Of a stretch of 64,000 nucleotides of DNA, positions 19,030 to 30,347 are shown one piece after another. The first letter of the stretch is position 1. Each line of letters starts with the position of its first letter. Below the pieces are notes generated by a model. The model was not told the origin of the DNA. It did not search any database and worked only from the letters and a program-made list of their open reading frames with translations. The position numbers were made by a program, and so were the translations under genes. This DNA comes from Candidatus Altimarinota bacterium (lineage in GTDB: Bacteria > Patescibacteriota > Gracilibacteria > UBA4473), in NCBI GenBank assembly GCA_018608565.1, contig JABAZT010000028.1, positions 1 through 64,000 on the forward strand, given 5' to 3'.

Positions 19030-22000
19030 CTAGGTGTTTATGTTTTTCATAAAGTCTTCTGGAGTAAGGCTCTGTTGTTCTGTTTTACCTTTTATCGTAG
19101 CTACGATTTTCTTATCTTCCCACCGAACAATCGTAAACTTCTCTGCTATTATGGCTTCCCCGAGCTTATTTAGACTCGGTTGATTAAATACAAAACTGGA
19201 CTTATTAGACACAGAGGTTAAGTCCTTAAATCCTTTTACCAGATCTCCTTCCGCCGTTAATAATTTGGCATCCTTCAATGTATCTACCCCTATCTCATCT
19301 TTTCTAATCCAGCCATCTGTATCTAGTTTTGTAATTGATGCTTCAACTTTGTTGTTAAATTTCAGTTCTTCTTCTGCTAAAAATCTCGATACATTGCTCA
19401 TCTTTGTTTTTAAAGCTTCGAGTGTTGTAACTGGATTGGATATTGCGCCCTTCATCAGGTTAACTCCAACAAATTCTTTCGTGTCATCTGTTTTCTCTAC
19501 TACTACATCTGTTATTTTTTTTGTGCTAATCATATGTCCTAACCCTTTTATGTCAGGCTCTGACAATCCCCCGCCCTTCCAAAAAGAATCTTCAATTTTC
19601 AGTAATTTTTCAAATACAGGATTTAAAGTCCCATCATCATTAGAAAGACCGTTTTCTTTAATTACTTTTGAATTAAGATCCCCTTCGAATTTATCACTAA
19701 ATTCACTCAAATTCCCAGAAATTTCTAGAAGTAAGGCTTCCTCTACTTCTCTCTTTTGTGCCTCAACATCTAACTTCATTTCGTCCTTGAGCGCTTCTAC
19801 TGTCTGATCCGTGATCTTTCCTTCTATTTCATAGGACTTAGCAGTGGCACCTTCTCCTACCGTAAAGATCATAACCGTTTTTCCATCTTTTTCCTGTGAA
19901 CTGATCTTATTGGTTTCCTTTAATAGCGTTGTAATTGTCTCAAGTGAGGTGGTTGGATCAATATTCGTCCGAACTTTTTCTTGTCCCAGAATCTGAGATT
20001 GAAATTCATTCATCGCCTCTATTGTTCCAAAATTACTCGTTAAAAATGTTTGTCTTTTGGTCTGTAGTGCTTTTTGAGCGGTTTCAGCTGCCTCTGGTGA
20101 AACTGGAGCAGGCTCCGTGAATGCTGGTGGGGGCGTTACTCCTGGCGTCGTACCAGGAACTGGTGTGGGAGCCTGTACTGGACCTGTGCCTGGAACAGGA
20201 ACCACTGTCTTTTCATAGTCTACCTCATTAAGAACAAACCCCGCCCAATCCCCTTTTTCCGCAATTTCTTTCGCCCTCACTATTCTATCATTCTTTTCCT
20301 TTTTCTCTGCTGCGCTGTCTTCCCTTACTTTTTTCTGTTCTTCACTTTCAGAAAGTCCATTTCCTTCTAAAAATAAATCTTTGGCTGACTTATCAGTTCC
20401 TGCCTCATCCCCAAGACTTATCCCCAATCCTTCTAGAAACTCAAGCAATGCATGAATCGCTCGTTCAAATTCAGCTCCATCGCCTTTTTGTAATTCTTCT
20501 TTTCGCTTTACTCCATCAAACCAATCATCCCATATCTCCGTTACATCAACTCTATTTGGATCAAATCCTGGACTTGCCGGATCTAAGGCTGGATCATCTG
20601 AATAGGTAGGAACTGCCGCCTTTGTATCGATTAGATACTGAGAAAAGTCTTCCGCATACTCTCCTCCACGGAACGAGTATGCCCATTTTGGAATTCCATC
20701 CTCCATAGCCCTTCGATAGAGTAGTGCTTGTTTTAGTGCTGCAACTTCAGAACTTGGACTATCCATTCCTCCATGGCTTTCAATCTCATCATTGAGCTGT
20801 TTTTTTGTATATGACTTATATTCATCCTTCACTTCGAGACGAGTATTCCCCATCATCTGAGTTTCTAGATTTTCTGAGTTTTTATCGAAATACTCAAGTG
20901 CCGCATTCTCGATCATATCGCTGGCTTTTGTTTTAAGATCTGAGGTATCAAGATTTTGTAATACTTTTACCTGACTTGCATTCAACAGGGCACTCAACTG
21001 TGGTGGAAATGGCAGCGCTGCCTCTCCGCCCATTATTCCTCCTAAAAAATCATCTAGTACTATTACATTAGGACCTGTTTTGGTCTTGTTTTGCTTCGCC
21101 TCATTTTTGGTTTTTTGATCTTTGGCTCTATTTTCATCGAGCCAGGCTTCGTATTCTGTTACCAAAGCTGTACCCAACCTTCCCGCTGCTAATTCTATTA
21201 AATCTGTTGATTCATAAATCTCTGATCGAGTAAAACTAAACCCTGAAACTTGACCTAGATCAATAGATCCGCCTGATTCTTGTTCTTTTGACTCTGGTAC
21301 TTGAGGGGCTGGCATATGGCCACCCAAAATATCTGCTTGTGTATTTACTGGAATATCCGCAATATTGAAGATTCGTACTACATCCTCTGGGTCTAATAAT
21401 CCAGATTCTATATTTCCCTGCACGGTTTCCTTGATGGCACCAATATTTTCTGTTGTTGGCGTGGCTTTATACATAGTTAATAATCGCCCCAACTCTCTCT
21501 TCATGTCTGCTATATCTCTATCTACGGCTGTATTCAATCTCTCTGTAAAAGCCCTTCGCTCTGGCTCTTGTGCTCCTGGTGCAGGAATTACCTCTCCATA
21601 TTCCCTTGCGACTACGGCCAATTTCTGATTAAAAACTTCACTTAGTTTTGATATAACCTGTTCTCCATTTGTAATTGTCGAATCCACTTTAAGTGCTTCA
21701 ACCCAGTCTTTTATTATATCTTTTCCTCCAATCTTACTATAGAGAGCCTCACTTGGACCTAGTAGATTCCCTTTGTATTTAATCCCTCCCAAACTGTCTA
21801 CTATATCTGTAGTAGGAATATCCGAATCATCTTGTGCGATAAGACGAATCCAGTCCATTTTTTTAATCTCATCTGATTCATTTTTATAGCTTTCTTCAAA
21901 CTGACTCAGTCTCTCTGATTGTTTTTGATTGAGACCGTAGGATTCCTCACCTTCATTCTCTACCACAGCAGGATCTCCATCCACTGTAGTCGTATCTAGA

Positions 22001-22554
22001 CCTAACTCTGAGGCAATTGTATTATAAATTTTTTCTGTGGTTTTCCCACTTTTGAGTTGCGCCATAAGATAATCATCTATTTTCCCAAATTTTGGATGTT
22101 TTTCACTAATCCATTTTGTATAATCATCCCCAAAATCAGCCTTAAGCTTATCAGCTAGTGTGAGTAACTCTGTTTTTTGCCTCTCTGAAAGTTCTGGAGC
22201 TTCTGGTGCTATTGTTTCTGCTGGCATGAGCTTATCAGCCCAATATTCTGCTTCTTCTCTGGTAAATTGGGCGGAAAGCATATATTTTTTGAGTAATTTC
22301 TTGTCTACATCCCCTTCAGCTACTAGTGACTGAATACTTTTTTCTATGGAATCCGTCATTCCTCGAACTGCATCTGGACTTGAATATATTTGAAGCTCAT
22401 CAACACTTAACCTATTTGTTTCGCCTGCCAACACTTCGTCAGAAAGAGAATCCAAATATTTTGATATTTCACCTCCAACTTCACGATCAAGAGTCTCTCG
22501 GTCGGAAATCAAAGCTGTTACTTCATCCTGATGATTTTCTGGAATTTCACTCAT
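19030..22554 (-). CDS. Hypothetical 1174-aa protein with Pro/Thr-rich linker and apparent C-terminal repeats
   Basis: Uninterrupted ORF; linker VPVPGTGPVQAPTPVPGTTPGVTPPPAFTEPAPVSP. Confidence 0.85.
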   Translation of the reverse strand: MSEIPENHQDEVTALISDRETLDREVGGEISKYLDSLSDEVLAGETNRLSVDELQIYSSPDAVRGMTDSIEKSIQSLVAEGDVDKKLLKKYMLSAQFTREEAEYWADKLMPAETIAPEAPELSERQKTELLTLADKLKADFGDDYTKWISEKHPKFGKIDDYLMAQLKSGKTTEKIYNTIASELGLDTTTVDGDPAVVENEGEESYGLNQKQSERLSQFEESYKNESDEIKKMDWIRLIAQDDSDIPTTDIVDSLGGIKYKGNLLGPSEALYSKIGGKDIIKDWVEALKVDSTITNGEQVISKLSEVFNQKLAVVAREYGEVIPAPGAQEPERRAFTERLNTAVDRDIADMKRELGRLLTMYKATPTTENIGAIKETVQGNIESGLLDPEDVVRIFNIADIPVNTQADILGGHMPAPQVPESKEQESGGSIDLGQVSGFSFTRSEIYESTDLIELAAGRLGTALVTEYEAWLDENRAKDQKTKNEAKQNKTKTGPNVIVLDDFLGGIMGGEAALPFPPQLSALLNASQVKVLQNLDTSDLKTKASDMIENAALEYFDKNSENLETQMMGNTRLEVKDEYKSYTKKQLNDEIESHGGMDSPSSEVAALKQALLYRRAMEDGIPKWAYSFRGGEYAEDFSQYLIDTKAAVPTYSDDPALDPASPGFDPNRVDVTEIWDDWFDGVKRKEELQKGDGAEFERAIHALLEFLEGLGISLGDEAGTDKSAKDLFLEGNGLSESEEQKKVREDSAAEKKEKNDRIVRAKEIAEKGDWAGFVLNEVDYEKTVVPVPGTGPVQAPTPVPGTTPGVTPPPAFTEPAPVSPEAAETAQKALQTKRQTFLTSNFGTIEAMNEFQSQILGQEKVRTNIDPTTSLETITTLLKETNKISSQEKDGKTVMIFTVGEGATAKSYEIEGKITDQTVEALKDEMKLDVEAQKREVEEALLLEISGNLSEFSDKFEGDLNSKVIKENGLSNDDGTLNPVFEKLLKIEDSFWKGGGLSEPDIKGLGHMISTKKITDVVVEKTDDTKEFVGVNLMKGAISNPVTTLEALKTKMSNVSRFLAEEELKFNNKVEASITKLDTDGWIRKDEIGVDTLKDAKLLTAEGDLVKGFKDLTSVSNKSSFVFNQPSLNKLGEAIIAEKFTIVRWEDKKIVATIKGKTEQQSLTPEDFMKNINT

Positions 22555-24950: not shown

Positions 24951-27083
24951 ATGAAAAATAGTGTTTTACGATCGTTTGCATTCGTAGTGCTTATCGCACT
25001 TATCGCAGGTCTCTATAGTCTCCCGAGCGGAACGCTTGGAGATAATTGGCTTGGAAATAAATTGGATGAAGCCAAGGTTTCTCTTGGACTTGATCTCGTA
25101 GGAGGAACAGAGTTGGACTACAAGGTCGACCTCACGGAAGCAAGAGCTCTCAACAGTGATGATGATCCACAAAATGATGTAAGTCTTGACTGGATTGCTG
25201 AATCAGTACGAGATAGCTTGGAAGAACGAGTTAATCCGGCTGGAGTTGGTGAAATTGTCGTAAAGCGATCAAGAGTCGATAGCGAAGAGCATATTCTTAT
25301 ACAGATGCCCCCTTCTTCTAATGTTGCTGCTGCAAAAAGAGACGCTGAACGAGATAATCGGCTTGAGTTCTTCGAACAAGATCCATCTAAAGAGGTTGAG
25401 GCACGAAATATGATCGCGAGTTATCTTGATACTATAGATAGTAACAACTTTGAATCTGAAGGAGCTCGTCTTGCTGATGAAGATGATCTGGTAAGCTATG
25501 AAAAGGTATCTGCAAAATTTAGAGATGAATACACTGATGGACCACTCGCAGAAAAACTTTTTGTGGCAAACCAAGGAGATGTACTGCCTGAAGTAGTAGA
25601 AACGACAATCGTTCCATCAATTTCTTTTGATGACGATGGAAACCAAACTATTGAGGGAAGATTTGCTCAAGTACTCGCGCTCGTAAAAATAACGGAGAAA
25701 TCTGCACAAACACGAGATAAAACAACACAAGCTGAAGCTCAAGCACGACACATACTTCTTGCATATCAAGGAGCTACTCGGGCAGGAGAAGATGTTCCAT
25801 ATGTTGATGCTGCAGCTGCAAAAACAAAAGCAGAAGAACTACTACAACAACTTAAAGATGGTGGTGACTTCGCGGCTCTCGCTACAGAATTTTCAACCGG
25901 TCCAAGCGCTACATCTGGTGGCGATCTAGGAACCTTCAATCCAGGAAGTATGATTGGCGCCTTTAATGATGAAGTATTTGGAACTGACACTGAAGATTAC
26001 ACGACACTAGAGCCTATAACCGAAAACTATCTAGTACCAAGTGTTGTTGAAACAGACTTCGGATTTCACATCATTGAAATTCTTGGACGAACGCCAGAAA
26101 AAACTGAATCAATTGAAGAACCACTTGTTGGTTACGAAATGATTACTTGGGATCGAGATGAATTTGGATGGATAGAAACAGAGCTTAATGGTTCACATCT
26201 TGAAGCCGCAGCTCCAAGCTATGATCAACAGGTCGGAACTCCAGTTGTTGCATTGCGATTTACGGCCGAAGGAGGAGATCTTTTTGCTGAAATGACAGAA
26301 CGAATTGCCGCTCGAAGATGTGATGGTGGGCCTTGTTCTCTTGGAGCCAAAGTAGGAGGAGAGTGGGTTTCTAGAGCAACTGTTCGACAAAAAATTGTAG
26401 GACGAGATTCAATTATTTCTGGAAGCTTTACCTTTGAACAAGTAAAAGAACTCGCTAGTGGTCTTAATCTAGGAGCTATTGCCGCACCAGTTCAACTGAG
26501 CGGACAAACGACCATCCAAGCACAACTAGGAGAGACTCAGCTCAAACAAAGTCTTCGAGCTGCTGGATTTGGTCTTGGAGCTACAATACTCTTCATGCTA
26601 TTCATGTACCGATTAGCGGGAGTTGTTGCTGGAGTTGCACTACTGATCTATGCAGGAATTTTCTTTATGATTCTCAAAACGTGGCCTACTAGTTTTGGTG
26701 GTCCAATTGTTCTTTCTCTCTCAGGAGTTGCAGGAATGGCACTTTCTATCGGTCTAGCGGTTGATGGAAACATCCTTATCTTCGAACGAATGAAGGAAGA
26801 AGTAAAACGTGGACAACCACTCACAAAAGCAATTGAACTCGGATTTAGCCGAGCATGGAATGCGATCCGTGACTCAAACATTACGACGCTTATTACTTGT
26901 ATGATTCTCTTTGTTATGGGAAGCTCTGTTATTCAGGGATTCGCTATCATGCTTATTGTTGGAACACTCCTCTCTATGTTAAGTGCTATTTTCATCTCTC
27001 GTGCATTACTACGATTCCTTGTAAGTTTTCCATCACTACAAAAACCAAGTCTCTTTGCTTGTTCTAAATCTAAGAAGAAATAA
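24951..27083 (+). CDS. secD: SecD translocase subunit with inserted parvulin-type PPIase domain
   Basis: SecD: LGLDLVGGTELDYKVD, GIAAPVQLSGQTTIQ, SIGLAVDGNILIFERMKEE; insert: QARHILLAYQ...FAALATEFSTGPSATSGGDLGTFNPGSMIGAFNDEVF...VVETDFGFHIIEILGR. Confidence 0.95.
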   Translation: MKNSVLRSFAFVVLIALIAGLYSLPSGTLGDNWLGNKLDEAKVSLGLDLVGGTELDYKVDLTEARALNSDDDPQNDVSLDWIAESVRDSLEERVNPAGVGEIVVKRSRVDSEEHILIQMPPSSNVAAAKRDAERDNRLEFFEQDPSKEVEARNMIASYLDTIDSNNFESEGARLADEDDLVSYEKVSAKFRDEYTDGPLAEKLFVANQGDVLPEVVETTIVPSISFDDDGNQTIEGRFAQVLALVKITEKSAQTRDKTTQAEAQARHILLAYQGATRAGEDVPYVDAAAAKTKAEELLQQLKDGGDFAALATEFSTGPSATSGGDLGTFNPGSMIGAFNDEVFGTDTEDYTTLEPITENYLVPSVVETDFGFHIIEILGRTPEKTESIEEPLVGYEMITWDRDEFGWIETELNGSHLEAAAPSYDQQVGTPVVALRFTAEGGDLFAEMTERIAARRCDGGPCSLGAKVGGEWVSRATVRQKIVGRDSIISGSFTFEQVKELASGLNLGAIAAPVQLSGQTTIQAQLGETQLKQSLRAAGFGLGATILFMLFMYRLAGVVAGVALLIYAGIFFMILKTWPTSFGGPIVLSLSGVAGMALSIGLAVDGNILIFERMKEEVKRGQPLTKAIELGFSRAWNAIRDSNITTLITCMILFVMGSSVIQGFAIMLIVGTLLSMLSAIFISRALLRFLVSFPSLQKPSLFACSKSKKK

Positions 27084-27115: not shown

Positions 27116-28042
27116 ATGAATATCACAAAATCTCGACGAATCTGGTTTGGTCTCTCAGGAGGACTTGTAATCCTAAGTCTTGCACTTGTCTTTATCTTCA
27201 ACCTAAATCTTGGGCTTGATTTTACAGGAGGGGCTCGATGGGATATTCAATTTACTCAGACAGCTGAAGAAAATGAATCTGTAACTGTGAGTAATCAAGA
27301 ATTAAAATCATTTTTTGACTCAAGAGCTGAACTTGATCAAGGAGTTCAAATCCAACAATCGGATGATGGGACGTACCTTGTTACGATTCAAGATCTAGAG
27401 GACAAACAAATACAAGCTATTTCTGAAGCTCTTACTGAAGAAGTTGGTTCTTTTGAACAAACTTCCTACCGAAAAGTTGATGCTACGATTGGAGCTAGCT
27501 TTAAACGGAAAGCCTTTCAGGCCATTATTTTTGCACTGGTTGGAATCATTCTCTTTGTTGCTTATGCCTTTAGAAAAATTCCTGCAGCAATCAACCCTTG
27601 GCGATTTGGGGCGGTAGCTATTATTGCGCTCTTTCATGATATTATCATCGTACTGGGAATCTTTGTTGTACTTGGAGCTCTAACTGGGGCTGAGCTTGAT
27701 CTTCCATTTGTAACCGCACTACTAGCGACGTTAGGGTTCTCGGTAAATGATACCATTGTTATCCTTGATAGAGTGCGAGAGAACATTCGAGCGCAAAAAG
27801 CACACGAAACATTTGAAGACACTATTGAGAAATCCGTTCAACAAACACTTCACCGATCTATCAATACTTCTATATCTACGCTACTTCCACTTCTTGGACT
27901 GCTGTTCTTTGGAGCTAACTCTGTATTTTACTTTGTATTAGCACTTACCATCGGAATTGTTATTGGAACGTATAGTTCTATCTTCCTTGCCGCTCCATTA
28001 TTGGCTGAATGGAAAAATATTGCCGATAAACGAGAAGCATAA
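27116..28042 (+). CDS. secF: SecF translocase subunit
   Basis: LGLDFTGGARWDI, TLGFSVNDTIVILDRVREN, downstream of secD. Confidence 0.96.
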   Translation: MNITKSRRIWFGLSGGLVILSLALVFIFNLNLGLDFTGGARWDIQFTQTAEENESVTVSNQELKSFFDSRAELDQGVQIQQSDDGTYLVTIQDLEDKQIQAISEALTEEVGSFEQTSYRKVDATIGASFKRKAFQAIIFALVGIILFVAYAFRKIPAAINPWRFGAVAIIALFHDIIIVLGIFVVLGALTGAELDLPFVTALLATLGFSVNDTIVILDRVRENIRAQKAHETFEDTIEKSVQQTLHRSINTSISTLLPLLGLLFFGANSVFYFVLALTIGIVIGTYSSIFLAAPLLAEWKNIADKREA

Positions 28043-28068: not shown

Positions 28069-28776
28069 ATGAAATGGATCCTCACGTACTGGAAAAATCC
28101 TCGAGAGACTATGCGTAGTTTTTCTGAAAAATATGCGAATAAAAAACGAGCTATTCTTACGATCTATAGTATTGCCCTGGGAATTAGTTCTATTTCAAGC
28201 GTTGTAGATGCCTACACTAACCCAGATCTTTATCTTGGGTCTCTAGGACTTCCAGTTCCCCTTCTCTTGCTTGGACTTTTCGTAGTTATTTTTGGACTAG
28301 GATTATTGGCTTGGTGGATTTGGAGTTATATTGTTACGTTTATAGCCAACAAGATCTTCAAACTTTCGACTACTTCATACGCGGTAAGACAATCTGAAAC
28401 CCTTAGTGTTGCAGCTCCACTTCCTTTGTTTATTGGACTAGGACTTATTATGATGGGCTTCTTGTTTTTTGTCCCTTTGGTTGGAATGCTTATGATTCCA
28501 GTCTTTATTGTGATTGGTATATGGAGTACTATTTGTAAATATAAATGTCTTGGAGAAATGATGGGCTGTGGCGCGTGGAAAGCTTTTTTTGTTAGTGCAT
28601 TACCAATCATACTCATTATGATCCTTACAACGGTTGCGCTGGCTTTTTTCAATATGGGTACTTATAGTAACTATCTAGATAAAGCTTATGAAGCAGAACA
28701 AGCCGCTCTCTCAAATAATATAGAAATAGATACTTCCAATCTCAATATTGATACGGATGTCAAAATCGTTGAATAA
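28069..28776 (+). CDS. YIP1-like multi-TM protein
   Basis: TYWKNPRETMRSF N-terminus followed by several TM segments. Confidence 0.6.
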   Translation: MKWILTYWKNPRETMRSFSEKYANKKRAILTIYSIALGISSISSVVDAYTNPDLYLGSLGLPVPLLLLGLFVVIFGLGLLAWWIWSYIVTFIANKIFKLSTTSYAVRQSETLSVAAPLPLFIGLGLIMMGFLFFVPLVGMLMIPVFIVIGIWSTICKYKCLGEMMGCGAWKAFFVSALPIILIMILTTVALAFFNMGTYSNYLDKAYEAEQAALSNNIEIDTSNLNIDTDVKIVE

Positions 28777-29702: not shown

Positions 29703-30347
29703 ATGAAAAACAAGCTATTGCTCCTCTTCGGTCTATGGACAAACCCCAAAAGCACTACTAAAAAAATTATCCGAAAAAAAGTGTCTGAATGGAAACTCAT
29801 TTTGGTGATTTTTTTATTCTTCATATTGATGATGCTTCCTCAAGTACTCCTAAACACTAAATCTAATACACTTAATGATCCAATACTCTGGATTTCAATC
29901 CTCGTCTCGTTCTTGCTCTCTATTGGGATGTTTTACCTTGAAATATGGATCATTGACCTACTAAGTCACTATCTATGTAAGGCTAAGCCAAATTATAAAA
30001 AAGCTCGTATCGCCGCAACACTTACTCTCTTCCCAATTACAATTGCCATGGCTTTAGGGCTTGTGTTGTTATTTATTCCATTCTTTTGGGGAATATTTCT
30101 ATTTTTGATTTTAATGATATTGAGCTCTGTGGTAGTTTTTGGAATCTTATCGATTGGATTTGGCTTAAAATCTAGCTGGCAGGCTTTTGGAATGGTAATG
30201 ATAGTAAAGATTATTTTTGCTCTTATGACTCTAACGGTGATCTATTTTATCTATCAAGATGATATCAACTACTATCTTGATCAGATCAATTTCTACAATC
30301 CCTATAACACCGAAGATGCACACTTTGTTCCAGATGAGTTGAAGTAG
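29703..30347 (+). CDS. YIP1-like multi-TM protein
   Basis: Multi-TM; N-terminal LWTNPKSTTKKI similar to the 28069..28776 product. Confidence 0.55.
   Translation: MKNKLLLLFGLWTNPKSTTKKIIRKKVSEWKLILVIFLFFILMMLPQVLLNTKSNTLNDPILWISILVSFLLSIGMFYLEIWIIDLLSHYLCKAKPNYKKARIAATLTLFPITIAMALGLVLLFIPFFWGIFLFLILMILSSVVVFGILSIGFGLKSSWQAFGMVMIVKIIFALMTLTVIYFIYQDDINYYLDQINFYNPYNTEDAHFVPDELK

Follow-up and report, generated by a model that had tools for sequence, protein, structure and literature searches.

A parvulin-type PPIase domain within the P1 region of SecD in Gracilibacteria and other Patescibacteria

How extracytoplasmic chaperones meet the chains leaving SecYEG is an open question. In SecDF the P1 head binds emerging chains and is moved by proton flow. 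The locus described here lies in the window, i.e., the whole stretch of 64,000 nucleotides that was analysed (contig JABAZT010000028.1 of the gracilibacterial assembly GCA_018608565.1). The original prediction had placed a parvulin-type PPIase domain inside the P1 region of a SecD and had suspected a second, decayed parvulin in front of it. The features of the locus are collected in Table 1.

Table 1. Features of the secDF locus, with positions in the window.
Feature	Position	Strand	Basis
SecD-parvulin fusion, 710 aa: TM1, P1 with inserted parvulins, TM domain	24951..27083	+	ORF; TIGR01129; AlphaFold2 mean pLDDT 90
First part of P1: Sec_GG motif (residues 43-60), SecD_1st (86-143)	25077..25379	+	Pfam, expected order
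Putative degenerate first parvulin copy, residues ~138-259, without catalytic residues	25362..25727	+	Iterated HMM, hhalign, homologous copies
Intact parvulin (PPIase) domain, residues 256-379	25716..26087	+	PF13616, PF00639, hhalign, pocket residues, AlphaFold2
P1 head subdomain of SecD, residues 410-512	26178..26486	+	PF22599 (SecDF_P1_head), 7e-16
SecD membrane domain, residues 518-690	26502..27020	+	PF02355 (SecD_SecF_C), 4.5e-14
secF, 308 aa, 32 bases 3' of secD	27116..28042	+	TIGR00966, 1.2e-79, above cut-off

The fused gene is a single uninterrupted frame with no stop or frameshift, and it matches the SecD model TIGR01129 above the cut-off (1.6e-84, 284.4 bits vs 244.4). The Sec_GG and SecD_1st matches are both below their Pfam cut-offs, yet they stand in the expected order, and the first part of P1 ends in the strand RLEFFE, directly before the insertion. 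The P1 head and the SecD/SecF C-terminal TM domain then follow in the order expected of a SecD. The motor aspartate is kept, as D605 aligns with D340 of Thermus SecDF (alignment to 3aqp) and is more than 90% conserved. Because of this match and the adjacent secF, the motor looks intact. Downstream of secDF, two Yip1-domain membrane proteins (28069-28776 and 29703-30347) flank a Rce1-like (CAAX) protease according to Pfam. On the other side, a convergent, acidic-rich ORF of 1174 aa (19030-22554, minus strand) lies upstream of ligA.

The parvulin is located in an insert of about 260 aa between SecD_1st and the P1 head. When aligned with Thermus SecDF, only residues 38-124 and 412-699 of the fused SecD are covered, so that 287 residues (125-411) stand against 62 (98-159) in the Thermus protein. 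The insertion point was set by unfused patescibacterial SecDs, in which the motif LEF(K/R)E leads over a short linker to W..TxLtG. An AlphaFold2 model of the whole fused SecD, built from a 40-sequence family alignment (pTM 0.61), has its best structural match in SecDF structures (5yhf, E 6.3e-18). In this model the parvulin is flanked by two long strands (239-259 and 384-401), which may pair into a stalk.

Both parvulin models match this part of the frame far above their gathering cut-offs: PF13616 (Rotamase_3) with E 6.4e-22 (78.7 bits vs 22.5) and PF00639 (Rotamase, residues 267-377) with E 8.7e-18 (65.5 bits vs 21.7). By hhalign, the SecD parvulin matches free parvulins of other phyla at 1.1e-43. 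Compared with E. coli PpiC the pocket is complete, since the dual histidines H267 and H373 correspond to PpiC H8 and H84, and the hydrophobic residues M334, F338 and F370 to M57, F61 and F81. A Cys or Asp at the C40/C113 position, which is common although not universal in parvulins, is absent and Gly317 is found there instead. As Gly occupies the Cys40 position in 4 of 12 free parvulins aligned as well, this is no bar to parvulin membership. At residues 262-381 the AlphaFold2 model has the parvulin succession of elements (strand, three helices, strand, helix and two strands; b-a-a-a-b-a-b-b). Domain search and structure prediction agree, and the predicted position of the domain (25735-26100) matches the one found. 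From its pocket residues, the domain is expected to have PPIase activity.

The suspicion of a second parvulin upstream held for homology but not for the fold. An iterated family profile gives a partial parvulin match at residues 146-219 of the window SecD (E=0.01) and strong matches at the equivalent site in relatives (G027 6e-17, G029 5e-19, G043 ~1e-15). These relatives' matches fed the iteration itself, and two non-circular tests were therefore added. In SecDs of the ABY1 type, a profile made from free parvulins alone detects the upstream copy with values mostly of 1e-5 to 1e-11; in G043 and G052 the value is 1e-4. In addition, Pfam's own model finds two parvulins per SecD frame in sister SecDs (e.g., G166 2.9e-13 and G211 5.7e-12). 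The upstream stretch of the window family, compared with free parvulins by hhalign, gives a P value of 2.7e-5 and a probability of 74%. When the stretch was excised and modelled alone (pLDDT 84), no PDB match at E<1 was obtained; the first strand is missing from this excised model. In place, the degenerate copy may be completed by the SecD strand RLEFFE (138-143), which would take the role of parvulin strand b1. None of the catalytic residues is present in the upstream copy, where the positions read E, T, L and gaps. Because relatives have recognisable tandem copies at this site, the stretch is most likely a decayed first parvulin. Judged by these sequence comparisons, the insert of the window SecD descends from a tandem parvulin pair, of which the first copy has decayed in its lineage.

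The fusion is widespread in Gracilibacteria. In a sample of 380 genomes across the phylum, parvulin and P1 head were found in one frame in 35 of 37 Gracilibacteria; outside the class the number is 32 of about 343 Patescibacteria. Both counts were read off the match table of that sample. Within a set of 60 relatives, nearly every genome of the window family has a parvulin in its SecD frame, and the same was seen in many families of the class. Among the matches listed from a collection of 85k species, carriers are Gracilibacteria, Peregrinibacteria and the Uhr-, Magasanik-, Falkow-, Buchanan- and Kerfeldbacteria; these last five belong to the group known as ABY1. The fusion was rejected as a general feature of bacterial SecD, as a small set of 12 genomes from other phyla did not contain it. 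An apparent case outside the phylum, the 'Lysobacteraceae' MAG OTbin.42 (L130, JAACEG010000012.1), was rejected also: its SecD-parvulin fusion is of the ABY1 type and its genome has 0.7 Mb, and the Lysobacteraceae label is probably wrong.

The pocket is conserved together with the fusion across a class, as was seen in the survey of SecD homologs that had been proposed with the prediction, and the interpretation as a parvulin is thereby supported. The complete H-M-F-F/Y-H set is present in 29 of 36 gracilibacterial SecD parvulins and in 11 of 19 of the ABY1 type. The catalytic residues are lost in the SecD parvulins of G043 and G052, several lineages retain degenerate SecD copies only, and families with recoded TGA have no recognisable copy in SecD or relics only. 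SecD frames range from about 560 to more than 1000 aa, the longest being single-chain SecDFs, and insert length and copy number vary widely. Most single-copy ABY1-type SecD parvulins (L126 (G420), L105, L107, L108 and L100) have no first strand upstream, and an ARHILI/SHILI-like strand lies just downstream; from their sequences these are possibly circularly permuted or strand-borrowing domains. In one gracilibacterial family (L015, L012 and L072, from G025, G046 and G037) the P1 head has an extra insert in which hydrophobic stretches occur, e.g., WWQLIGYIVALAAGIAFI; this insert is followed by a segment whose DTNGDGVIN motif resembles a calcium-binding loop.

With respect to the origin of the fusion, a tree of the SecD core places Gracilibacteria on one side of a branch (97/90), while among ABY1-type SecDs fused and unfused forms are interspersed. 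The parvulin tree is poorly resolved, its 107 columns being too few to decide whether the fusion arose once, and does not group the two sets of fused domains together. Since the insertion site and the tandem layout are shared, one origin with losses, or transfer, would be more likely than two identical insertions.

The window genome (98.9% complete) has no other parvulin, so that the SecD copy is its sole one. The same holds more widely, as in 13 of the 14 sampled Gracilibacteria having a PF00639 match all such matches are in the SecD frame. Free parvulin proteins occur in other Patescibacteria, where most of the frames have about 230-480 aa, and some ABY1-type genomes have both free and SecD-fused parvulins. 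Four other apparently exported PPIases are encoded in the window genome, two FKBPs and two cyclophilins; judged by eye, both FKBPs and one cyclophilin have lipoprotein-type signals and the other cyclophilin is membrane-anchored. SecD therefore bears the only parvulin of this genome, not its only extracytoplasmic PPIase, and the supply of PPIase alone would not require a fusion.

Parvulins of this type are found outside SecD as well. Three Gracilibacteria encode lipoproteins of 467-473 aa without TM segments that consist of a SecD P1 base and two parvulins (L221:750-2168 (G227), L222 (G343) and L070 (G031)). The P1 head is recognisable in L221 and L222, and none was detected in L070. These proteins imply that the SecD-parvulin ectodomain can be deployed on its own. 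A genome of the same family as the window (G013) has two free parvulins of 225 and 362 aa (L080, G013:C3, and L081, G013:C8), of which the 225-aa protein is likely a lipoprotein. Their domains group with the SecD-borne parvulins of the window family in the parvulin tree (SH-aLRT 97).

What could a parvulin do within P1? SurA of E. coli binds the holo-translocon in the vicinity of SecDF; low-resolution EM together with AlphaFold models (E. coli/Thermus) places both of its parvulin domains, P1 and P2, on the SecDF P1 head (PMC9987972). PpiD contacts SecD and has been suggested to take up substrate and hand it over to SecD/F; the functional importance of its parvulin domain has been questioned (PMC9643414). 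Against this background the fusion appears to hard-wire an association that is transient elsewhere. We consider it probable that the frame encodes a working SecD with a parvulin built into its extracytoplasmic P1, between P1 base and P1 head, and that this parvulin, tethered to the translocase, serves as a foldase that acts in cis on chains leaving SecYEG. A chain leaving SecYEG would be handled by the P1 head and bound by the attached parvulin, which would catalyse the cis/trans change at prolines, keep the chain unfolded, or both. The P1 movement driven by proton flow would then carry substrate and catalyst together. Such a fusion would be a permanent, in cis version of the binding of SurA and PpiD to SecDF in E. 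coli, and of the role that PrsA has as a separate lipoprotein in Firmicutes. More tentatively, and somewhat short of what we would call probable, the Sec motor itself may have become the parvulin foldase of Gracilibacteria: proton-driven movement of P1 would bring a catalytically active isomerase repeatedly to the chain as it emerges, so that a single polypeptide would link the force of translocation to catalysed folding and take the place of every free parvulin.

A point against a foldase is the loss of catalytic residues (G043, G052) or of the whole domain (families with recoded TGA) in some relatives, so that SecD does not depend on catalysis in every lineage. The parvulin might instead be a holdase only, which takes hold of the emerging chain and, like a ratchet, hands it on to the P1 head; isomerisation would then be incidental, as is suspected for PpiD. 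The doubts about the parvulin of PpiD and its proposed handing of substrate to SecD/F (PMC9643414) agree with such a role, and tandem copies with one decayed, like the loss of catalytic residues in G043 and G052, fit binding. However, the catalytic set is complete in most gracilibacterial copies despite large divergence, whereas copy 1 of the same proteins has lost it. The pocket of copy 2 seems to be maintained by selection, and we regard a pure holdase as unlikely.

The wide variation in insert length and copy number, and the lineages with degenerate copies only, might rather suggest that the insert serves to lengthen P1, as a structural spacer or a docking arm, be it for a monoderm envelope or a partner protein, with the parvulin fold being kept for stability only. 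This we judge very improbable, as the catalytic residues are conserved and the domain recurs in two further settings, a lipoprotein module and a small free lipoprotein that nests among the SecD copies. An assembly chimera or a frameshift joining two neighbouring genes has next to no probability: nothing in its support was found, the frame is open throughout with SecD sequence on both sides, and it was rejected since the architecture recurs in dozens of independent genomes and named MAGs. The translocase-tethered foldase remains the reading that we prefer.

In dozens of lineages the contact between parvulin and P1 is made covalent, at the point where base and head of P1 join, which gives independent support to the model in which SecDF recruits parvulins. 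A fused SecD also offers a single-chain, stoichiometric system for testing the coupling of P1 movement and isomerisation. For the reading of proteostasis in Patescibacteria it should be considered that automated pipelines may annotate the parvulin of SecD as a PrsA or PpiC protein of its own. The architecture is relevant to research on protein export as well as on Patescibacteria. No report of a SecD-parvulin fusion was found in the literature searched, whose coverage mostly left out subscription papers. We conclude that SecD-parvulin is a real and conserved domain architecture, apparently undescribed, and that it is a variant of SecD and no new kind of system.

This is seen best in comparison with known systems. 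Like other SecD and SecDF proteins (TIGR01129; Thermus 3aqp and 5yhf), the fused SecD has TM1, P1 base and head, an RND-type TM domain with the conserved Asp, and an adjacent secF; unlike Thermus SecDF, it carries two parvulin-type units between a P1 base strand and the P1 head. P1 is enlarged in E. coli SecD too (615 aa), but there the extra sequence precedes SecD_1st and has no parvulin match in a Pfam scan. The two were rejected as equivalent because the site is different. PrsA, the foldase lipoprotein of Gram-positive bacteria, likewise has an extracytoplasmic parvulin tied to secretion; it is a free lipoprotein, whereas the window genome is without any free parvulin. The periplasmic chaperone SurA also has two parvulin units and, as described above, was modelled on the P1 head (PMC9987972). 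However, SurA is soluble and separate, while the parvulins studied here are covalently part of SecD, in which no SurA N-terminal chaperone domain was seen. With membrane-anchored PpiD, the fused SecD shares a parvulin that is fixed to the Sec translocon and touches SecD. PpiD, in contrast, is a separate protein with a parvulin that lacks the catalytic residues (-DILVL at the pocket columns in E. coli), whereas the SecD copy retains them.
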